From the NCBI GenBank assembly GCA_011033025.1, contig WFMF01000003.1, forward strand, positions 2,015,483 through 2,079,482: a stretch of 64,000 bases of DNA. The letters run 5' to 3'. How positions within the stretch are numbered: the stretch's first letter is position 1; each line of letters opens with the position of its first letter. This DNA is from Beroe forskalii (Eukaryota; Ctenophora; Nuda; Beroida; Beroidae). The position numbers and the translations under genes were made by a program. Positions 6,797 to 61,290 of the stretch are shown in pieces. Under the pieces are notes generated by a model. It ran no database searches and was not told the DNA's origin. It was given only the letters and a program-made list of their open reading frames with translations.

Positions 6797-9700
6797 TCAC
6801 AAGAGGGAGTTAATATTGTCCGAAACAACACCAATAATACCTGACAGGTACTCCTCACCATTCAGATCCTTCATGTTTCCCGGGGTGATAGTCATCTCAA
6901 AACCTGGCCCGTAGTCACAGAAGTGCTTGTGATCAGGGATACTGTCAGGTATGGACTCTCCCAAGATATCCGCTGTGATATGATGTTTCTAGACAGTGAC
7001 AATAGCCTAATTGATTTTAGCCAAAAGGCAGAAAAGCGTTATATCATACTATCTGATCAGTGGCCCACTGAATCAATTATACAGGTAGAGAAACGTTTCT
7101 AGATCCTACATACACTGAAGTCTGTGACAAACTTCAGCAAGTTATGCACGATAGGAACTTCTTACTTTCTTATGGTGGCATTCACTAGAAGCTACGAACC
7201 TGTTATCTGTGTCCAGGCCCTGGCTACGTTAGTGAAGTTGTAACCCCCTCCTCCGAGTAAAAGTGTGGGTTTCTGGAAACTAACTATCTTCTGCGTTACG
7301 TAGGATAATCCCTCGGGGGTGTAGGAAAACGCCTGGCAAATCAATTAGCTATCAAAACCACCGTAGGCTATGCAAAAGATTCGTTTTTTAAGCAATGAAG
7401 TTGGAAACTGCCGCGCAACAATGTCGTGTCCGATCAAACTCATCTCATCGAACTGTTAACAAATTACAAGTATGATATAATGATCATTTTGATTAGGGAC
7501 TAGGGTACCTGATGTGGGTCCCCCGCTATCCCGTCAGCTCCACACTGACACACAATAGCGTCAGGAGAGAACTTGCGTATAACCAAAGGTAGGGTTGCGT
7601 CTACAACCTGGGAATGTTACAGTTTGTAAAGTTCAATGTTAGAAACACTGGCTGAATGCAGTCTAAACGGGTCTAAATGGCATTGAATTCTCCAAAACTG
7701 GTTAATCAATTGGAGAATCTCCAATTGATTAACTAGTTTTGGATCAGTGGACATCAATCCTACCTGATATCTCTCTTCTAACCGCACTAACTCGTTTGAG
7801 GGTGGAGTCTGAAGCCCCGTCTCTGAGAGGGATATTGATGGAGTACCCCCTTCCCTTCCCATCTCCGATAGAGTGGATCTCCCCCGATCCAGGGTAGAAC
7901 CCAGTCTCGAACTTGTGCACAGAGTAGGTGAGAACATGCGGGGAGTGGTAGAAGGCTTCCTCCACTCCATTGCCGTGGTGTAAGTCCAGGTCTACGTACA
8001 TCACCCTGATAAGAAGAGAGACGATTGATTCCACGCCATAATAATTAGTATGAATAGCAAACAACTTGCCTCTATGCGATGACTCCAAACTGGATATGAT
8101 TAAACCACTGCAAATTGCCTTATTTCACGATATGACATATGAATTTTTAAAGACAGTTCTTACTTGTCGAATGTATTGCGAAGGTACTTTATAGCCAGAA
8201 CACAGTCGTTCAGATAACAAAACCCTTCTGCCTTCTGAGGTTGGCCATGGTGCCAACCACCGAACCAGTTAACCACGACCTAGAGTCAAATCCTAATTTT
8301 TTCAGGAACAAATTCTACACCAAGCGATTTTGACTGTTTTCCACAGTTTTTTGCCCAAAAAATCGATCTAGCAACTTTCCGAGACTTTCCGGAGTGGGGA
8401 AAGTGCCGAAAAATCGATTTTTAGTTGAGGTGCAGCCGACTGACCTGTGAAAAATCGTAACTTGGCTCAGGAAGGTCGTAGAGACTTCAATTTGGGCTTA
8501 AAAGAAGCGCAATGACCATGTTTATATACGACTTGTTAATAAACATGTGCCCTAAAATGGTCAGGAACAGAGTTATGGGCGAAAAACTGATTTTTGAGCA
8601 CCCGCGATACATAGCGGAGGCGATTTTTGTATCTCAGCTCAGGAGGATCGTAGAGACTTCAATTTGGGCTTAAAAGAAGTGCAATTACCATGTTTATATA
8701 CGACTTGTTAATAAACATATGCCCTAAAATGATCGAGAACAGAGTTATGGGCGAAAAACTGATTTTTGGGCACCCACGATACATAGCGGAGGCGATTTTC
8801 GTATCTCAGCTCAGGAGGATCGTAGAGACTTCAATTTGGGCTTAAAAGAAGCGCAATGACCATGTTTAAATACGACTTGATAATAATCATATGCCCTAAA
8901 ATGCTCAGAAACAGAATTATGGGCGAAAAACTGATTTTTGGGCACCCGCGGTACATAGTGGAGGCGATTTTTGTACTTCAGCTCAGGAAGGTCGTAGAGA
9001 CTTCATTTTGAGCTTAAAAGAAGCGCAATGACCATGTTTACATAAGACTTGGTAATAAACATATGCCCTTAAATGCTCAGGAACACAGCTATGGGCGAAA
9101 AACTGATTTTTGGGCACCTGCGATCATGCATAGCTGAGACGATTTTTATATCTTGGCCAAAGAATGTCGTAGAGACTTCGTTTTGGGATTAAAAGAAGCG
9201 CATTGGCCATGTTTACATACTCCTTGTTAATAAATATAAACCCTAAAATACTCTTGGGCGACAACCTGATTCACTCATAGGCCATGAGGCAGTGCTGAGG
9301 CACTTTTATAATATCCCAGGCCAGAAAGCAGTGCAATGGCCTTTTTTGGATATTCCCCATATAATACAGGTCGCAGAGCTAGGACCTAGGTGTTATTGAT
9401 GGATCATTATGTTTCATAAGCATGCTCTGATGGGCTATATGGCTGCCAAGGTCAGCAAAAGTATACTAAATGATTTACCGCAGGGCTCAAAGTGTTTGAT
9501 CACTCCAGAACCAGAACTTATGTCAAAATCAAATAGATGTTGCCAATATTTATGGCATACAATCCAAAATATTTATATGTTCAGCTCATCATTTAACCTT
9601 CCTGCCCAGTGCACAGTTTCCCGTACATTCGGCTGAGTGAACCGAGAGGCTGCGTAGTTGTTTTGAAGGAAAGAATCTTCACCCTTAGCACGATAAGCAG

Positions 9701-12700
9701 GGCCAGGAACTGGACCACCAGCTTACCAGGACCGGGAATTGAACCTAACTTCATAGATATGGAATAGACGTGTTGACTCCATAGATATGGATTATGGAAG
9801 GTACTGCATACAATTAAGTCACAGACGAGACCATGGATCTGACCTATTATAAAATTTATATACCCTGACCAAACAAGACTCTAGATTATTTCCTCCTACT
9901 CGGGTCAGAAAATCTTCGTCTGTATTTATCATTCAATCACCTATGTAAAGATTTTTGAGACCTACTTCATCAAATTAGATTTGGTTTAGGTTCACAAATC
10001 AATATTTTGCTTGGCAATTCCGTGGTGACCCTTTAAAAGAAATAAGATATGAAAATCCCCAGATGTAAAGATTCTCAGGAGAATAAAAACTCCAGGGCAA
10101 AAATAATCATGGTAAGATCTGGTAATTGTGGTTCTTGTTTTTAAAGTTTAAGCCCTCATTATGGGCCATTGGGCCAAGCAGAGATTCGAAAATCGCATCT
10201 GTCATGACCTTAGGGAGACTAAAATATGAGTCATATATTAAATTATTAACATGGCCACTGCGTTATTTTTAGTGTCAACGACCTTCCTGAGCTGAGATAC
10301 AAAAATCACCTCCACTATGTATGGCAGGTGCCCAAAAATCAGTTTTTCACCCATAGCCCTGTTTCTGAACATTTTAGGGCATATGTTTACGAACAAGTCG
10401 TATATAAACATGGTCATTGCGCTTCTTCTAAGCCAAAAACGAAGTCTCTACGATCTTTGTGAGCTGAGATACAAAAACCGCCTCCGCTTTGTATTGCGGG
10501 TGCCCAAAAAATCAGTTTTTCGCCCATAACTCTGTTCCTGATCATTTAGGGCATATGTTTATTCACAAGTCGTACATAAACATGGTCATTGCGCTTCTTT
10601 TAAGCCCAAATTGAAGTCTCTACGACCCTCCTGAGCTGAGATACAAAAATTGCCTCCGCTATGTATCACGGGTGCCCAAAAATCAGTTTTTCGCCCATAA
10701 CTCTGTTCCTGATCATTTTAGGGCATATGTTTATTAACAAGTCGTATATAAACATGGTCATTGCGCTTCTTTTAAGCCCAAATTGAAGTCTCTACGATCC
10801 TCCTGAGCTGAGACACAAAAATCGCCTCTGCTATGTATCGCGGGTGCCAAAAAATCAGTTTTTCGCCCATAACTCTGTTCCTGATCATTTTAGGGCATAT
10901 GTTTATTAACAAGGCGTATATAAACATGGTCATTGCGCTTTTTTTAAGCCCAAATTAAAGTCTCTACGATCCTCCTGAGCTGATATACAAAAATCGCCTC
11001 CGCTATGTATCGCGGGTGCCCAAAAATCAGTTTTTCGCCCAAAACTCTGTTCCTGACCATTTTAGGGCATATGTTTATTAACAAGTCGTATATAAACATG
11101 GTCATTGCGCTTCTTTTAAGCCCAAATTGAAGTCTCTACGACCTTCCTGAGCCAAGTTACGATTTTTCACAGGTCAGTCGGCTGCGCCTCAACTAAAAAT
11201 CGATTTTTCGGCACTTTCCTCACTCCGGAAAGTTGCTAGATCGATTTTTTGGGCAAAAAGCTGTGGAAAACAGTCAAAACCGCTTGGTGTAGAATTTGTT
11301 CCGATTTTGAGCTATTCTGGGCCAGATTTGACTCTATTATGATTCGATTCCTCCTGAACTTGAAATCATACTTTCGTTCAGTGGACGAAATACCGGTACC
11401 CACTCAAACTCCGAAATTCACGTCGCGCCACGGCATTCTTCGTAATTTTTTCCCGCTTTGATGAATTTGCGTGAAATCCATGAAACCTTACACAAAAACG
11501 CGCGTGATTGTTACGCTAACAGATACAAAATATGTTTTAGCGCCCCACGCAAAAACGTGTAAGACTTTGTGACCAGTGGGACATTATCCAAAAGTGTACT
11601 TTTTTAATATAGCGATATTATGGCCATTTCACAAGTAACTGTCAAGTTTATCAACAGTGTTTTGAATTTTCTACTTTTCTGCTTCCAGCTACACACAAAA
11701 TTTGGTGGAAAAACCCCACAGAAATTTCGAGATAACCGAATTATTACGTTTTCAAAATATATTCTTGCGTTTCAAGAGAATTTGGCAATAAAGACTCCAA
11801 CAAATTAAAATATGCTCCACTCCTCGGTCTCGAGCTATGATGGAAGTTGGAGATGATCGACTTTAAAGTCACGGGTTCTAAAACGTGTTCAGTTGCAAAA
11901 CGATGTACCGACTGTGCTTTAAAAAGTAAGATCCTGGTCAGTTTCGTTTACCTGGTACAATTTGAGTGCCAAAGCTTCAGCAGCATCTATTGAAGATCCC
12001 CCGATAGCGCATACTGTCTCAAACATTCGTACAAAAGGCGGACAGTCGTAATCTGAAATACAGCAAGCTCAATTTTCAGAGGAAAAGAGGGAGGTAAACA
12101 CTTTCTGGTTGGATAGCTGACAATATAAAGACAGATAAAGTTACAAATTCGAAGCACCGTGGCTTTAAAAATATTTTAGTAGCACCTCAGAAGCAAATAA
12201 GTTATGAATGAATTATAAACTTATAACGTTAATATCAGGTAAAAACTATTAAAAACAACATGTATACAAAGCTAACCTAATCCATGTTTCTGTAACAGTT
12301 CTTTGTCTGTTTCATCATTGTACGATTCTAATGCTTCAATGTAGTCTTTGCTGTGAAATTCTGTTAACTGCAATCTGAAATTTTAACGTAATATGACTTA
12401 GTCGTGGCTTAGATACTTAGATATATAGGTACCACTTATCGTGAAATGCACACTATCAATCTCATATCTGGGCGCAGGCAAGCGCTTGCAGTGCAAGAAA
12501 GGGAACTGCAAATATGGTCGAGAAGCCGCGGGCAGTTGCTCAGAAGACAGTAGACGAGACAGACTTTCTCTGTCAAGGTGGTGAGGCCTAGTGACAACGA
12601 TTTTTTTCTGGTGGAATGAATCGTATAATTCATTGTTATTGAACGACTGCGAATTATATGCACAGACGTTCAATTTTTTAGCCCCCCTTTTCTGATATAG

Positions 12701-21127: not shown

Positions 21128-24100
21128 TCATTCTGAAGTTTTCTGTTTCTTGTACTTGAAGGACTTCAATGGATCTGCTTTTCGCTTCGATGTTTGTCCT
21201 TTGTAATTTCCTACTTTCTTCTTACTGAAATCAATTTTTCGTTTCTTCTTTTTTCCTTGTTTGATGTTTCCTTTCAAAGCTGAAGGCACGAGATAGTCAG
21301 GTACGGTTGAAAGATGATCTTTGATATCCCTAACTTTACCCACTTTGTCATGCCTTAAAACCTCTAAATCTTTGGGATTTTCCGTAAAAAATGTTTTGAG
21401 TTTTTCAGAGTTTATTATTTCTTGTTTTATTTCCTTTCGACGACATTCTTGAATTGCAAACTTTGTCACAGCTCTGTATGCGTCAAGACATCTATAACGA
21501 AAGCCTTCAATAGAGGACATGTTAAAGTTATAGGGCTTGAATTCGTCCGTTTGATCTGCAGTCTTGTTAAGGTGTACCTTAAGTTCTTCGAACTTCGTGT
21601 CATTTTGTGGAGTGAGGAATGTCAAGCTATATCCAGTGTTAAATGCGCGAGCAGTTCTTCCCACACGATGCACATACTGTTCTGAACTATGAGGAAAGTC
21701 AAAGTTTATGATATTATCAACACACTGGAAGTCAATGCCACGTGAAATGTTATATTCCTTGTTCTGATGATCATCACTTGCTAACACAATATCATAAATA
21801 CCTGAGAGTAAAGCTTATTAAACAATTTCTGGGCTGGACACCAAAAATGGTGTTAAAACTGAAGGATCATAAAACCTTAAGCAGTTAAAGTGTAGCAAAA
21901 ACTTCTAATGCATTAAGCTATAAGTGTACCTACTACCTCTAATTATAGTTTCAAGAAGGCATAATTTAAGTGTAAAAGACTTGCAACAAAACTTTAAAAA
22001 CTTCATTGAGTGTTGCATCATACTTGACAAAAATTGCCATGGGCCACACATGTCACATGATACCTTATCGGACATTATTATCACGGACTTAAGTTTCACG
22101 GACCTAAAATTTCATGGACATTAATATTCACACTCAATCCAGCCACTTCAAATCTCAACAAAATTTCGGAATTTCGGAATTATCGGCTGGATTTTTCCCA
22201 TTTTCTTCCACGATTTGAATTCTTGAATTGACTAATTGAAAATTTTTTCAATATCTTTCGTTAATTAATATTATAAATTTCCGTATTGCAGGTGCTAAGC
22301 ATGAAAAAGAAGTATAATTCCTTAAATAATCAGAACAGCAACGCCACGAAGACACCACGGTAGCGCCACGGTGACGCCACGGTAACGCCACGGTGACGCC
22401 ACGAGGACGCCACTGCGGCGCCACGGTGAAGCCACGAAGACGCCACGATGAAGCAACGAAGACGCCACGGTGACGCCACGGTAGTGCCACTGTGAAGCCA
22501 CGAGGACGCCACGAGGAAGCCACCTAGGCGCCGGGGCAGTGCCATGGTGAAGCCACCGTGATGCCACGAGATGGCCACTGTGACGCTGGCCTGGAAACGC
22601 CACGAGAAAGCCATGGTAGAGCCACCGTGAAGCCACGGCAGCGCCACTGTTGTGCCAGGGATAATTTCGATGCTGTTTCATCATCTGACCCGTCACCTTA
22701 CCGGATCTCAAGGTCGACATGGGTGTCATGATACATTGATATGTGAGTCATGGTATATGATCTACCTATGTGTATTGTGGGCGAGTTGTGAGCCATGATG
22801 TGACCCCATTGATTGAAACGTCATGATGACGACAACCTCTTAGAAACGTCAGTATAAAATGCGCTACCTGCCATGTAAGGTATCGCATTGTTTCAATTGT
22901 ATCTACTCCAACGATCTAACTACATCTACTACGACAGAATCCTGATGTCTTCCTCCACCAACAACAGCAGCTCCTTGATTCCAGATCGACCGTCTATCAT
23001 CTCCTGTGAAGACTGCTCTGTAGAGAACTACAACTTCCTTCGACTCCCTGACGGCGACCTTGGCACCTCCGTCACTTTCAGACATTGTGCCGTGCACAAG
23101 GCAAACTTCAGAGCCCCTCCAGTTACCAGCAACCCTTCTGCCCATCCTCCTCAGCCCCCCACCATCCAGACTGCTACAATGAGACTGCACCAGAACCGCA
23201 GACCGGCCGCTCAGATTCAGAACCCCCTCCTGCTCCTGTGGTCGTGCCTACTCGGAACCACCGCCCTACTTCAACTCATGCTGCCCTGGAGGTCTATCAG
23301 AAGGTTCTCTCCCTCACCCAGGACCCAGATCATCCTAGATCTCAGGATCAAGCCATCGCGGAAGTGGGGATGTCCAGACGCACATTCCAGAGGAAGAGAG
23401 CCATCGCGGAGCTGATGCTGGTGGACGAAGACGCCTTCAACAACATCGTTCAGAGGATGGCAAGGGACGCACAAGGCAGCAAGATCCATCAGGAGGACCT
23501 GTCCAGGAAGTGTGTGGCAGCCATGAGGAGCAGGATATCTTGCTGTTCTCCAAGACGCTCCCCTTTCTGAAGGTAGTTCCCACAGCAAGCCCAACAGTAG
23601 CCGTCTCTGAACTTGCGGGAAGAACACTGCTGTGAGGTCATGTAGTCTGTGCATGTAGGGCATCTTCTGTACTGTGGCAGGATTTCGACGTCAAGCAGGT
23701 ACTGCAGACAGTCTCTCTGTAGCTCGTAGTGTTGGTATTCATGATGTCAATGCAAAGGAATGAATGCTGAATTTCCAACTAACTTTGCTTTTATAGGGGC
23801 ATCTTCATCTTATTGCTCCCACGGGAAACATTACATCGCATGCAATCATGGAGTAATGCGGTCGACTAATGCAGATATAGCCTAATTAGGTACTCTAATG
23901 AGGGCATTCACAAGATGAGCGTCGCACTCAAACAATAGGCTCGAATTATCACAGTTTATATATGCCTACATAGTAACATTTGCAAGCTTAGGGACACCTT
24001 GCACCGGGTCACATGTCGCCAGGGTGCCCTAATAACAAGAGCCGAATGCTAGATGCATACCTTTGCAGCTTTGCGTGTCGTCATGTGACACGCGCGTATG

Positions 24101-27100
24101 CCGTCATCACTCATGAGACGAGTGTCACATGACGGTAGACAAGGTATAATGCATCTCGCATTCAGCTCTTGTTATCAGGGTGTCAGCAGTTATATGACCC
24201 TATCAATCGGTTAATGAATAGTGCAATTCGAGCCAATTAGGACAAATATAAAGCGCGCCCGACCAAAGGCAATATCATTCAATCTGTAATTTGTTACAAT
24301 CAATCTCCTATCAATTCAACTCTACCATGCCCAAGACTTCCACTTCTATCACCCGTTCCAGAACCGTCAGAACCCGAATGAGATTCCATACAGAGTTCGA
24401 TCCCCTACGAGTGGTCGCAGGAACCAGTTCGGCCCAGGATGACGCAGTGCCCTCCAACAGTACCAGGAGAGCAACTACAAGACGTGGACGACGGGGGAGA
24501 GGCAAGGCAACCACCAACAGACAGATCGGAGGAGGTCCCCTGACAGGGGATGCATTCCCAGATTCAGGCCAGTCGGACAACAAATCCCGAGCTGTTTGCA
24601 CCACGGTTGAGCCAATCAGATCAGAGGTCGGAGTCCAACTACTCTGCTGCTCTTCCTGTGGTGATGTTGGACACGAGGACACCTTCTGCACCGCGGAGAA
24701 GCCCACGAACCGGCTGAGGGTTTAGTCATCAGTATTTTTCCACCTATGTATCAGCTATTCAGATAATATGTTTGCATTTAATGATATCATACATTATAAA
24801 CTGTCATTCACTCATAATTATTAATGAATAAATTATTATGAGTGCGTGTATATGCCTGTATTACTCCAGTAGCCCAGGCTAAGTCAGTATGCAAAATTCG
24901 AGTGGACAAAGTTGCTCAAAGGTTTTTGGTACTTCCAACTGTGCTTTATCGAAAAAATTCACTGCCCTTTCGTGAATCGACGTCATGGGTGGTGCTACGG
25001 CCACGCCCATTTTTCACACGGTTAAACGGCTGTAACTCCGGTTCCTTTTGGAGTTGGGAGCAAACGTAACTCGGCTGTAACTCGAAAACGAAAGGAACCG
25101 GAGTTACAGCCGTTGAACCATGCGAAAAATGGGCGTGGCCGTAGCACCACCCATGACGTCGATTCACGAAAGGGCAGTGAATTTTTTCGATAAAGCACAG
25201 TTGGAAGTACCAAAAACAACTTTGTCCACTTGAATGTTGCACACTGACTTTGCCTGGGCTACTGGAGTATATTATTAATGATTGTCTAAATTATCTTATC
25301 AAAATTATCCCTGGCACAACAGTGGCGCTGCCGTGGCTTCACGGTGGCTCTACCATGGCTTTCTCGTGGCGTTTCCAGGCCAGCGTCATAGTGGCCTTCT
25401 CGTGGCATCACGGTGGCTTCACCATGGCACTGCCCCGGCGCCTAGGTGGCTTCCTCGTGGCTTCACAGTGGCACTACCGTGGCGTCACCGTGGCACTGCC
25501 ATGGCGTCTTCGTGGCTTCATCGTGGCGTCTTCGTGGCTTCACCGTGGCGCCGCAGTGGCGTCCTCGTGGCGTCACCGTGGCGTCACCGTGGCGCTACCG
25601 TGGCGTCTTCGTGGCGTTGCTGTTCTGATCTATGCCCAATAATTTTATTATTTGTTCATTTAAAGAGATGAAGTCAGAAATTTTGTGTCTCTAACCTAGA
25701 AATTCTATTAGAGGAAATACTGGACATAATTTTCACAGACCAGAAAATCGCGGACATTAGTATCATGGACAAAATTTTCACGGACATCAATATTCACGCT
25801 GAAGTGATTATTACATCCGATAAGGTAAGCCACGAACAGGACTTAATATGAAGACATATTCTTGAAATTTGAAGGTGGCAGCTAAAGTATATGGGGTCTT
25901 TTTTTATTTCGAAGGTTTTACTTCTATTCCAACAGCTGTAACAGCCAATGACAGGAATCGAAGGATTCAAGTAAACAGGCCAGTGACGGTTATTAAGGAA
26001 GTGTAATCCATACTTTCTTCGCCCGAGACTTCGCTGCAATGGGCAGCTCCTCATTTAACCCTCCCGCACAGTTTCCTGTATGCTCGGCTGAGTGAACCGT
26101 GTGGCTGCTTAGGTGAGAGTTCTCACCCTTAGCACGGTAGGCAAGGCCGGGAATGGAACCACCAACCTCGCGATTGAAAGTATGACGCCCTAACCACTGC
26201 GCTACCTGGCCACTAACTCAAACTAAAAATGAAATAGGTAGAAATAACAGAATAACAATATCTATTACTTCCAATAAAAATTTTGATTTCCACAAACCTC
26301 TGTTGAACTGATCAATTGCATGAGCCACACAGTTGGAGGGAAGCTCAAAGTTAAGCACACAAGAATTGATTGAAAACTGCTCCAGAAACAATTTAACTTG
26401 ATAACATCTGAAATATATGATATGTCACTCTCAGTACAGAGTGAATATCATTGTCAACTACTGTAACTATAATAGTATAATATTAGAATTATCTTCAATA
26501 AAAGGGAACGAAGGAAATTGCTCATTTCTCTCTGCTGTGCCCAAATAACTGAACCAAATAGAGTCGAAAGGCTGCATTTTTTGCAGGGTGGTAAAGAAAA
26601 GGATCCCACTGGCTTCAGGTTTATCAAAATTTGAATTAAAGCTTTACATTTTTTGTAATTAACATTGGAAGTTGGAAAAAGCATTGTTGAGCTGTGTGTG
26701 TTGCTTCAAAGAATTCTCTGTTAGGGGCTGTTAAATCTCTTTCATCACTGACCTGTTTGTATCAGAAACAAATAGAATAGTCTTTCCTCTAATGAGATTC
26801 AGTTTCAGTAATGTATAAAGCAATAGAAATTTATCATCGTTGCTGCATCTCACAACATATTGCTCCAATTTACTCTCCTGGAAATACACAATGCTTATTA
26901 GGTATACACTTATACAGTACGATTCAATTTAATTAATTATAATACGTTTAAGCAATGGAAAAATAAACAAATGTGGCAACTAGTTTTTACTCTTGAATCT
27001 ACCTTTGAAAAATTCTATCAACGAAATGTACCAATGGTTACCTCATTTACTGCTGTGTTAAGATTGAGCTTCATTGGGTTATTTAAATGTAAACACAATG

Positions 27101-50692: not shown

Positions 50693-52358
50693 GATAGGGT
50701 CCCCTGTTAGTGATAGGGACATCTGTTTACTTGATAGGGTCCCCTGTTAGTGATAGGGACCTCTGTTAACTTGATAGGGTCCCCTGTTAGTGATAGGGAC
50801 CTCTGTTAACTTGATAGGGTCCCCTGTTAGTGATAGGGACCTCTGTTAACTTGATAGGTCCCCTGTCAGTGATAGGGACCTCTGTTAACTTGATAGGGTC
50901 CCCTGTTAGTGATAGGGACCTCTGTTAACTTGATAGGTCCCCTGTTAGTGATAGGGACCTCTGTTAACGATAGGGTCCCCTGTTAGTCAGTGATAGGGAC
51001 CTCTGTTAACTTGATAGGGTCCCTGTTGTTAGGGACCTCTGTTAACTTGATAGGGTCCCCTGTTAGTGATAGGGACCTCTGTTAACTTGATAGGGTCCCC
51101 TGTCAGTGATAGGGACCTCTGTTTGATAGGGTCCCCTGTTAGTGATAGGGACCTCTGTTAACTTGATAGGGTCCCCTGTTAGTGATAGGGACCTCTGTTA
51201 ACTTGATAGGGTCCCCTGTTAGTGATAGGGACCTCTGTTAACTTGATAGGGTCCCCTGTTAGTGATAGGGACCTCTGTTAACTTGATAGGGTCCCCTGTT
51301 AGTGATAGGGACCTCTGTTAACTTGATAGGGTCCCCTGTTAGTGATAGGGACCTCTGTTAACTTGATAGGGTCCCCTGTTAGTGATAGGGACCTCTGTTA
51401 ACTTGATAGGGACCTCTGTTAACTTGATAGGGTCCCCTGTTAGTGATAGGGACCTCTGTTTACTTGATAGGGTCCCCTGTTAGTGATAGGGACCTCTGTT
51501 TACTTGATAGGGTCCCCTGTTAGTGATAGGGACCTCTGTTTACTTGATAGGGTCCCCTGTTAGTGACAGGGACCTCTGTTAACTTGATAGGGTCCCCTGT
51601 TAGTGATAGGGCCTCTGTTTACTTGATAAGGTCCCCTGTTAGTGATAGGGACCTCTGTTAACTTGATAGGGTCCCCTGTTAGTGATAGGGACCTCTGTTA
51701 ACTTGATAGGGTCTCCTGTAAGTGATAGGGCCCTATGTTAACTTGATAGGGTCCCCTGTCAGTGATAGGGACCTCTGTTAACTTGATAGGGTCCCCTGTT
51801 AGTGATAGGGACCTCTGTTAACTTGATAGGGTCCCCTGTTAGTGATAGGGACCTCTGTTAACTTGATAGGGTCCCTGTCAGTGATAGGGTCCTATGTTAA
51901 CTTGATAGGGTTACTTGTTAGTGATAGGGACCTCTGTTAACTTGATAGGGTCCCCTGTTAGTGATAGGTACCTCTGTTAACTTGATAGGGTCCCCTGTTA
52001 GTGATAGGGTCCTCTGTTAACTTGATAGGGTCCCCTGTTAGTGATAGGGACCTCTGTTTTACTGGATAGGGTCCCATGTTAGTGATAGGGACCTCTATTA
52101 TTTTGATAGGGTCCCCTGTTAGTGATAGGGCCCTCTGTTACTGATAGGGTCCCCTGTTAGTGATAGGGACCTCTGTTAACTTGATAGGGTCTCCTGTTAG
52201 TGATAGGGACCTCTGTTTACTTGATGGGGTCCCCTGTTAGTGATAGGGACCTCTGTTTACTTGATAGGGTCCCCTGTTAGTGATAGGGACCTCTGTTAAC
52301 TTGATAGGGTCCCCTGTCAGTGATAGGGACCTCTGTTAACTTGATAGGGTCCCCTTTA
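50693..52358. repeat. 40-bp minisatellite, about 41 copies
   Basis: Unit: CTTGATAGGGTCCCCTGTTA then GTGATAGGGACCTCTGTTAA, 40 bp, with point variants and a few shortened copies. Starts directly at the end of the 1-kb array. Confidence 0.97.
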
Positions 52359-58327: not shown

Positions 58328-58605
58328 GGACCTCTGTTAACTTGATAGGTCCCCTGTTAGTGACTCTGTTTAGGGACCTCTGTTTACTTGATAGGGTCCC
58401 CTGTTAGTGATAGGGACCTCTGTTTACTTGATAGGGTCCCCTGTTAGTGATAGGGACCTCTGTTTACTTGATAGGGTCCCCTGTTAGTGACAGGGACCTC
58501 TGTTAACTTGATAGGGTCCCCTGTTAGTGATAGGGCCTCTGTTCACTTGATAAGGTCCCCCTGTTAACTTGATAGGGTCCCTGTTAGTGATAGAGGACCT
58601 CTGTT
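58328..58605. repeat. Second block of the 40-bp minisatellite, about 7 copies
   Basis: Same unit as 50693-52358. The run 58377-58575 reproduces, in order, the variant copies found at 51447-51645 (including the GTGACAGGGACC and GATAAGGTCCCC variants). It directly abuts the 41-bp array. Confidence 0.93.
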
Positions 58606-61290
58606 AACTCTATTTCCCAGTAAACTCACTGCAACTCACTCTAAGACCCTATTTCCCAATAAACTCACTGCAACTTACTCTAAGACCCCTATTTCCCAGT
58701 AAACTCACTGCAACTCACTCTAAGACCCCTATTTCCCCAGTAAACTCACTGCAACTCACTCTAAGACCCCTATTTCCCCAATAAACTCACTGCAACTCCC
58801 TAAGACCCCTATTTCCCAGTAAACTCACTGCAACTCACTCTAAGACCCCTATTTACCCAGTAAACTCACTGCAACTCACTCTAAGACCCTATTTCCCCAG
58901 TAAACTCACTGCAACTCACTCTAAGACCCTGCAGTAAACTCACTGCTCACTCTAAGACCCCTATTTCCCCAGTAAACTCACTGCAACTCACTCTAAGACC
59001 CCTATTTCCCAATTAACTCACTGCAACTCACTCTAAGACCCTATTTCCCATAAACTCACTGCAACTCACTCTAAGACCCCTATTTCCCCAATAAAACTCA
59101 CTGCAACTCACTCTAAGACCCTATTTCCCAGTAAACTCACTGCAACTCACTCTAAGACCCCTATTTCCCCAATAAACTCACTGCAACTCACTCTAAGACC
59201 CCTATTTCCCCAGTAAACTCACTGCAACTCACTCAAGACCCCTATTTCCCCAGTAAACTCACGCAACTCACTCTAAGACCCCTATTTCCCCAGTAAACTC
59301 ACTGCAACTCACTCTAAGACCCTATTTCCTGAACTCACTGCAACTAAAGACCCCTATTTCCCCAGTAAACTCACTGCAACTCACTCTAAGACCCCTATTT
59401 CCCCATAAACTCACTGCAACTCACTCTAAGACCCCTATTTCCCAGTAAACTCACTGCAACTCACTCTAAGACCCCTATTTCCCAGTAAACTCACTGCAAC
59501 TCACTCTAAGACCCTCTATTTCCCCGATAAACTCACTGCAACTCACTCTAAGACCCTATTTCCCCAGTAAACTCACTGCAACTCACTCTAAGACCCCCTA
59601 TTTCCCAGTAAACTCACTGCAACTCACTCTAAGACCCCCTATTTCCCCAGTAAACTCACTGCAACTCACTCTAAGACCCCTATTTCCCCAGTAAACTCAC
59701 TGCAACTCACTCTAAGACCCCTATTTCCCCAGTAAACTCACTGCAACTCACTCTAAGACCCCTATTTACCCAATAAACTCACTGCAACTCACTCTAAGAC
59801 CCCTATTTCCCCAGTAAACTCACTGCAACTCACTCTAAGACCCCTATTTCCCCAGTAAACTCACTGCAACTCACTCTAAGACCCCTATTTCCCCAGTAAA
59901 CTCACTGCAACTTACTCTAAGACCCCTATTTCCCCAGCAAACTCACTGCAACTCACTCTAAGACCCTATTTCCCCAGTAAACTCACTTTCTAAGACCCCT
60001 AGTAAACTCACTGCAACTCACTCTAAGACCCCTCTATTCCCCCAGTAAACTCACTGCAACTCACTCTAAGACCCCTATTTCCCAGTAAACTCACTGCAAC
60101 TCACTCTAAGACCCCTATTTCCCCAGTAAACTCACTGCAACTCACTCTAAGACCCCTGTTTCCCCAGTAAACTCCTGCAACTCACTCTAAGACCCCTATT
60201 TCCCCAGTAAACTCTGCAACTCACTCTAAGACCCCCTATTTCCCCCAGTAAACTCACTGCAACTCACTCTAAGACCCCTATTTCCCCAGTAAACTCACTG
60301 CAACTCACTCTAAGACCCCTATTTCCCCAGTAAACTCACTGCAACTCACTCTAAGACCCCTATTTCCCCAGTAAACTCACTGCAACTCACTCTAAGACCC
60401 CTATTTCCCCAGTAAACTCACTGCAACTCACTCTAAGACCCCTATTTCCCCAGTAAACTCACTGCAACTCACTCTAAGACCCCTATTTCCCCAGTAACTC
60501 ACTCACCTAAGACCCCTATTTCCCCAGTAAACTCACTGCAACTCACTCTAAGACCCCTATTTCCCCAGTAAACTCACTGCCCTCTAAGACCCCTATTTCC
60601 CAGTAAACTCACTGCAACTCACTCTAAGACCCCTATTTCCCCAGTAAACTCACTGCAACTCACTCCTAAGACCCCTAAGACCCCTATTTAAGACCCCCCC
60701 AGTAAACTCACTGCAACTCACTCTAAGACCCCTATTTCCCCAGTAAACTCACTGCAACTCACTCTAAGACCCCTATTTCCCCCCCAGTAAACTCACTGCA
60801 ACTCACTCTAAGACCCCTATTTCCAGTAAACTCACTGCAACTCACTCTAAGACCCCTATTTCCCCAGTAAACTCACTGCAACTCACTCTAAGACCCCTAT
60901 TTCCCCAGTAAACTCACTGCAACTCACTCTAAGACCCCTATTTCCCCAGTAAACTCACTGCAACTCACTCTAAGACCCCTATTTCCTGAACTCACTCTAA
61001 GACCCCTATTTCCCCAGTAAACTCACTGCAACTCACTCTAAGACCCCTATTTCCCCAGTAAACTCACTGCAACTCACTCTAAGACCCCTATTTCCCCAGT
61101 AAACTCACTGCAACTCACTCTAAGACCCCTATTTCCCCAGTAAACTCACTGCAACTCACTCTAAGACCCCTATTTCCCCAGTAAACTCACTGCAACTCAC
61201 TCTAAGACCCCTATTTCCCCAGTAAACTCACTGCAACTCACTCTAAGACCCCTATTTCCCCAGTAAACTCACTGCAAACTCGCTGTAAAC
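58606..61290. repeat. 41-bp minisatellite, about 65 copies
   Basis: Unit: CAGTAAACTCACTGCAACTC then ACTCTAAGACCCCTATTTCCC, with unit lengths of about 39-42 bp because of C-run changes and several truncated copies. On the minus strand each unit has AGAGTGAGTTGCAGTGAGTT, i.e. two 5'-splice-site-like GTGAGT words. The array lies in an intron or 3' flank of the minus-strand gene whose exon ends at 61314. Confidence 0.97.

Follow-up and report, generated by a model that had tools for sequence, protein, structure and literature searches.

An apparent Merlin-superfamily foldback element with additional genes and 11-bp arrays as arms in the ctenophore Beroe forskalii

We analysed a 64,000-nucleotide stretch of the Beroe forskalii genome, called the window here (contig WFMF01000003.1, forward strand; C358:2015483-2079482 in our labelling), in which two long inverted arms enclose a gene with a putative DNA-binding domain (gene 1), a minus-strand remnant of a putative transposase and a gene for a basic, Cys-rich protein (gene 3) (Table 1). 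Related sequences were searched for in the 216-Mb assembly of the same species, and other copies are named by contig label. On balance, we consider the element to be a dead, internally deleted Merlin-superfamily DNA transposon of the cut-and-paste kind and of foldback design, in which gene 1 would be the likeliest binder of the arrays that make up the arms.

Arms and genes of the window copy

A sequence-only reading of the window had described the ends as degenerate tandem arrays and as nearly identical to each other, and both descriptions were borne out. When each arm is compared with itself at a lag of 11 nt, 64% of positions match in the left arm and 62% in the right, versus 28% on average and at most 35% in shuffled sequences (500 shuffles per arm). 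Within the GCCAC core, three letters are invariant among 16 left-arm units taken in register, and the remaining two vary once each. The ungapped inverted pair 22352-22671/25298-25617 (320 nt) is 91% complementary. With gaps allowed, 22329-22672 and the reverse complement of 25298-25629 are identical at 316 of 321 aligned bases, the two arms differing by three 11-bp gaps. Gaps of this size are also found when the window's right arm and 13 arms from other copies are aligned with the window's left arm: these 14 arms contain 25 gaps, of which 20 are at least 5 nt long, and all 20 are exactly 11 bp. Long inverted ends built of tandem repeats define the foldback form, and the window element has them. 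Its bounds had been placed at 22331-25628; a single element does lie there, with the corrections that its right end reaches 25637 and its left tip is damaged.

Gene 1, described earlier as encoding a Cys/His protein with a helix-turn-helix (HTH)-like part, lies on the plus strand. In the window copy one frame runs to 23226 and another covers 23250-23528, with a frameshift between 23226 and 23250, and the C-terminus is cut near 23527. In five of the six members scanned, the domain at this end matches the C-terminal half of the Pfam model CCDC106 (PF15794). One member exceeds the gathering cut-off of 30.2 bits (a 121-residue piece of C218, 32 bits); scores below it were obtained for a longer C218 sequence (29.3), C736 (29.5), C536 (25), C460 (20.2) and the window (20.5), and the Pfam scan gave no CCDC106 match for gene 1 of C299. 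A single-sequence AlphaFold model of the C-terminal part of the window's gene 1 has a mean predicted local distance difference test score (pLDDT) of 70; only residues 11-50 are modelled well, and there an HTH-like helix pair reaches a pLDDT of about 90. PDB profile searches returned matches at expectation values (E) of 0.13, 0.44 and 0.58, none of them significant. Judging from domain match and model, gene 1 appears to be DNA-binding in type.

Compared with the 219-residue frame in C231, gene 3 of the window copy lacks about 90 residues at its end. It had been read as a basic protein with a CCHC knuckle. Its basic character stands, and the knuckle is suggested by spacing only: gene 3 contains a C-x2-C-x4-H-x4-C stretch, and the Pfam model zf-CCHC_4 matches at E 0.14, far under its cut-off. 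Paralogy of genes 1 and 3, considered for their similar zinc spacing and C-terminal stretch, was not supported (BLASTP E 0.058 and 0.46; profile comparison probability 1.5%, E 0.033). Ratios of non-synonymous to synonymous substitution (dN/dS) are based on too few changes to carry weight in any of the genes: 0.07 for gene 1 between the window and C536 (1 non-synonymous, 4 synonymous), 0.3 among C299, C178 and C480, 0.19 between C218 and C736, 0.15 for the transposase (1 non-synonymous, 2 synonymous) and 0.49 to 1.24 for gene 3.

The window copy is evidently dead, because its transposase is truncated, gene 1 is frameshifted and cut, gene 3 is shortened and the left tip is lost. A short inverted repeat sits between the divergent promoters of the transposase and gene 3. 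The nested palindrome near the right arm has arms of 127 nt (98% complementary) and 53 nt (92%), is absent from relatives and is a later insertion.

Table 1. Coordinates of the element and its parts in the window
Feature	Position	Strand	Description
Whole element, window copy	22329-25637		inverted arms and interior
Left arm	22329-22672	+	ACGCCACGGTG-type 11-bp units in array, with GCCAC as core; lacks the outer tip GGGCATAG
TATA-like box	22853-22859	+	TATAAAA, upstream of gene 1
Gene 1	22945-23528	+	N-terminal CxxC...CxxH, Pro-rich linker, CCDC106-type HTH domain
Putative Merlin transposase stump	23489-23742	-	start codon, zinc-ribbon-like CxxC...CxxC part
TATA-like box	23789-23795	-	upstream of transposase
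32-bp inverted repeat	24027-24180		arms 24027-24058 / 24149-24180, 29/32 matching
TATA-like box	24247-24253	+	upstream of gene 3
Gene 3	24327-24722	+	basic, Cys-rich
Nested insertion	24862-25277		palindromic, like a miniature inverted-repeat transposable element; foreign to the element
Right arm	25298-25637	-	inverted array ending CTATGCCC (tip GGGCATAG on minus strand)

Copies, target duplications and the Merlin superfamily

At least 52 matches to the left arm are present in the genome, and in other copies parts of the interior are found again between the arms. The arms are therefore not a satellite without a linked interior, which had been named as an outcome that would overturn the view of one element. 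Pieces of all three frames recur between the same arms, and perfect 8-bp target duplications bound five of the ten two-ended copies (C536, C891, C208, C207 and C301), in agreement with the proposal of a single multi-gene element. In the C208 copy the right tip is changed by one base. As a control, 72 mismatched flank pairs from the first nine copies gave no agreement at 8/8 and two at 7/8. The best flank agreement in the window copy is 6/8, with no target duplication, and at locus L028, where two tips are present, it is only 5/8. Tips read GGGCATAGATCAGAACAGC in most copies and begin with 5'-GG; GGGCATAG occurs in most of the tips listed. The five duplication-bounded copies span 338 to 2578 bp, two of them being 338 and 398 bp, and therefore two arms and little more would suffice as a substrate. 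From copies, tips and duplications it is apparent that the family is a mobile element.

An 8/8 flank match that can be obtained for the two C758 copies with wide offsets was discarded, as it lies within the tip of the element; the offsets expected give an agreement of 2/8. On the same contig (C758:466000-475999, L024) two diverged copies of the arm pair, at 815-1471 and 8802-9463 of that stretch, lie 8 kb apart and share near-identical left flanks, so a host stretch has been duplicated there.

The zinc ribbon encoded on the minus strand had been called Merlin-like, which proved correct. It is 66% identical to a frame in C381, relative to which it has an internal 34-nt deletion, and its catalytic part is absent. 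It also aligns with the frame of C891, a copy of the same family that continues into the catalytic part and matches DDE_Tnp_IS1595 at 38.5 bits (Pfam cut-off 27; 41.6 bits with one stop). The first two D residues of the catalytic D, D, E are present in C891, the C381 and C891 frames ending before the third residue. All three catalytic motif regions are present in the related C1002 transposase. A CxxC...CxxC part is conserved in the transposases, which also contain an HTH-like stretch. The minus-strand frame is, by these alignments, the N-terminal stump of a Merlin transposase.

Published Merlins have 5'-GG tips, duplications of 8-9 bp, a DDE_Tnp_IS1595 domain and arms of 24-462 bp (PMC8101967). 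We assign the family to Merlin because the domain, the GG tips and the 8-bp duplications are all present; its arm length is also within the published range. The sequence-only reading knew of no named family with this design. That statement has to be withdrawn, since the Merlin superfamily fits.

Arrays and gene 1 in other families

The C-terminal part of gene 1 from C218 was used as a query and gave 35 matches in the genome; DDE_Tnp_IS1595 matches are also 35. Four of the gene 1 matches (C263, C531, C171 and C869) lie less than 2 kb from a DDE_Tnp_IS1595 match and on the same strand, compared with 0.026 pairs expected under uniform placement, an expectation that makes the excess look generous since transposons cluster. 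At C171 the gene 1 frame is open, with a Pro-rich and a basic stretch. In C218 a Merlin-type N-terminus is fused with gene 1 in one frame, and in C736 two such frames overlap. Both loci, copies of a family other than the window's, have 12-bp arrays, GGCAGTATCC ends and 8-bp duplications (CCATTCTT and TCATTATG); additional matches in the scan of C736 fall inside its own arrays. From this arrangement we read C218 and C736 as internal deletions of a two-gene parent, although no such parent was found. C316 was tried as a parent with a transposase beside gene 1 and rejected: its 1.6-kb extra stretch yields no more than two short matches to gene 1 (E 0.72 and 0.80) and looks like another insertion.

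Tandem arrays are frequent around these genes. Of 11 loci centred on a Merlin transposase or gene 1, seven contain arrays of at least 50 bp whose period is 11 or a multiple of it. Other periods occur at L064 and L065 (12-bp arrays), L073 (21-bp array) and L069 (just one repeat, of 21 bp, within the gene), and C171 has a 21-bp array beyond gene 1. At L071, L073 and L074 the array is on one side only of the fetched stretch. Each of the five Merlin transposase loci read (C1002, C358, C292, C188 and C2) carries 11- or 21-bp arrays; in C1002, where the transposase frame is intact, arrays are present at both ends and the tips are GG. Counted by family, 11-bp arrays are present in five of eight other Merlin or gene 1 families versus three of 35 control tiles (p 0.003; one of 19 tiles in the window, two of 16 in its flanks), where tile and locus lengths differ somewhat and the family count leaves out the window's family and L069 (five of nine with L069). 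Of the DNA transposons, this comparison covers Merlin and gene 1 loci only, set against the control tiles. The sequence of the 11-bp unit differs from family to family.

Long tandem arrays are also present elsewhere in the window, at 6-633 (21-bp units), 50693-52355 (40-bp) and 58371-61277 (40-41-bp), and the period of the first resembles the arrays near two other Merlin loci. At 8305-9249 and 10371-11302, two arrays of a 172-bp repeat in inverted orientation, ~1.1 kb apart and 91% matching over 947 nt, form another foldback-like structure. A 15-16-bp repeat (CGGACATTAATATTCA type) occurs on either side of the element (22069-22131 and 25751-25798), and the element may lie within an older repeat. 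On the minus strand at 21332-21814 an open frame reads, from its translation, like the end of a DEAD-box RNA helicase and is likely a host gene beside the insertion.

Reading of the arrays and relation to known systems

The probable scheme for the element is a division of labour similar to that of En/Spm. The transposase would cut at the GG tips, as expected from the superfamily. Units of 11 bp, approximately one helical turn, could let a protein bind cooperatively along a single face of the helix, and the protein bound to the arrays would pair the two ends and confer family specificity. This reader could be gene 1 or the transposase's own N-terminus. By analogy with TNPA of En/Spm (PMC2613891), we infer that gene 1 binds the 11-bp arrays, because it has an HTH-type domain and is linked to Merlin. 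Gene 3 might be a second helper or a regulator, and copies reduced to little beyond the arms would move in trans.

Several observations weigh against this scheme. Half of the two-ended copies have no target duplication (the multi-array locus C132, two at C758, one at C664 and the window), and C1002 shows no 8-9 bp duplication. Slippage without selection could by itself produce gaps of whole 11-bp units, and in three families the array period is not 11 (two 21-bp, one 12-bp). Foldseek gave 82 PDB matches for the gene 1 model, none at E 0.001, bacterial sigma region 4 being a weak one. There is no gene 1 within 2 kb of 31 of the 35 DDE matches, and at C299, C178 and C480 gene 1 and arrays are found with no transposase match.

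A real but smaller probability belongs to the same Merlin foldback in which the zinc ribbon and HTH at the N-terminus of the transposase would read the arrays, genes 1 and 3 being regulators or passengers. The five Merlin transposase loci, which also count against a role of gene 1, fit it well: arrays are present in five of five and a gene 1 match at E 0.01 in none. The conserved zinc-ribbon-like and HTH-like parts of the transposases point in the same direction. There is also a precedent in Galileo, a foldback of the P superfamily, whose THAP domains bind repeats in the long inverted ends (PMC3688188). It is difficult to reconcile with the position of gene 1, however, which adjoins Merlin transposases far above chance and lies inside duplication-bounded elements, and with C299, C178 and C480, where gene 1 stands between arrays and no transposase matches.

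It is very improbable that the element is a Mutator-type foldback, similar to FB, TU and Tetris, that acquired Merlin fragments. The outward design is shared (long arms with internal tandem repeats, 8-10 bp duplications), and the majority of foldbacks has been assigned to Mutator (PMC4079207). The family has GG tips, exact 8-bp duplications and the Merlin DDE domain instead, and Pfam scans of the frames given found neither a MULE (Mutator-like element) transposase nor another Mutator domain. Three unrelated insertions brought together by chance between satellite arrays, which the earlier reading had allowed for, can practically be dismissed: the region does contain one unrelated nested insertion and all copies seen are rearranged, yet separate duplication-bounded copies hold gene pieces together with arms (C536 those of genes 1 and 3, C891 those of the transposase and of gene 3).

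Known systems resemble the favoured Merlin foldback in different parts. Internal tandem repeats have been described in Merlin, for example a 12-bp repeat present four times in one copy, and that paper reports only one extra overlapping frame, which its authors judged to be chance (PMC8101967). The family studied here differs from described Merlins in two added genes and in arms consisting almost entirely of an inverted 11-bp array. FB, TU and Tetris have similar long inverted ends with internal tandem repeats, a variable middle and near arm-only copies, with a Mutator transposase domain where the Merlin one is found here. Galileo shows the foldback form in another superfamily, and its transposase has binding sites in the repeats of the long ends; it differs in having a THAP domain and a P-type transposase, and the abstract mentions no helper gene (PMC3688188). 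In En/Spm (CACTA) a separate DNA-binding protein, TNPA, reads fast-diverging subterminal repeats and the transposase is conserved (PMC2613891). En/Spm has an unrelated transposase, 3-bp duplications and a non-homologous helper, and binding has been shown there, whereas for the element here it is proposed. From the CCDC106 family gene 1 differs by its N-terminal CxxC...CxxH part and its location in a transposon, with the window and C536 copies below the model cut-off. A Merlin with additional genes and phased arrays as arms was not found in the open-access literature; subscription literature and Repbase lay outside this search, and an entry could exist. Membership is in the Merlin superfamily with foldback design, and the putative helper genes and phased arrays as nearly the whole arm look new.

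A wider reading is doubtful but worth stating. A whole animal Merlin clade could use two-component transposition, with a CCDC106-domain helper that co-evolves with helically phased arrays of 11 bp (in some families 12 or 21 bp), entirely different in sequence from one family to the next, and vertebrate CCDC106, a p53-linked protein, could have descended from such a helper. The Merlins of one published account are built around a transposase gene (PMC8101967). If a helper gene is indeed kept across diverged Merlin families, and if their end arrays vary by full helical turns and from family to family, these elements would offer an animal system for direct tests of an old question, the co-evolution of transposon ends and the proteins that read them. 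Such a helper would also be a possible source for the animal CCDC106 gene family.

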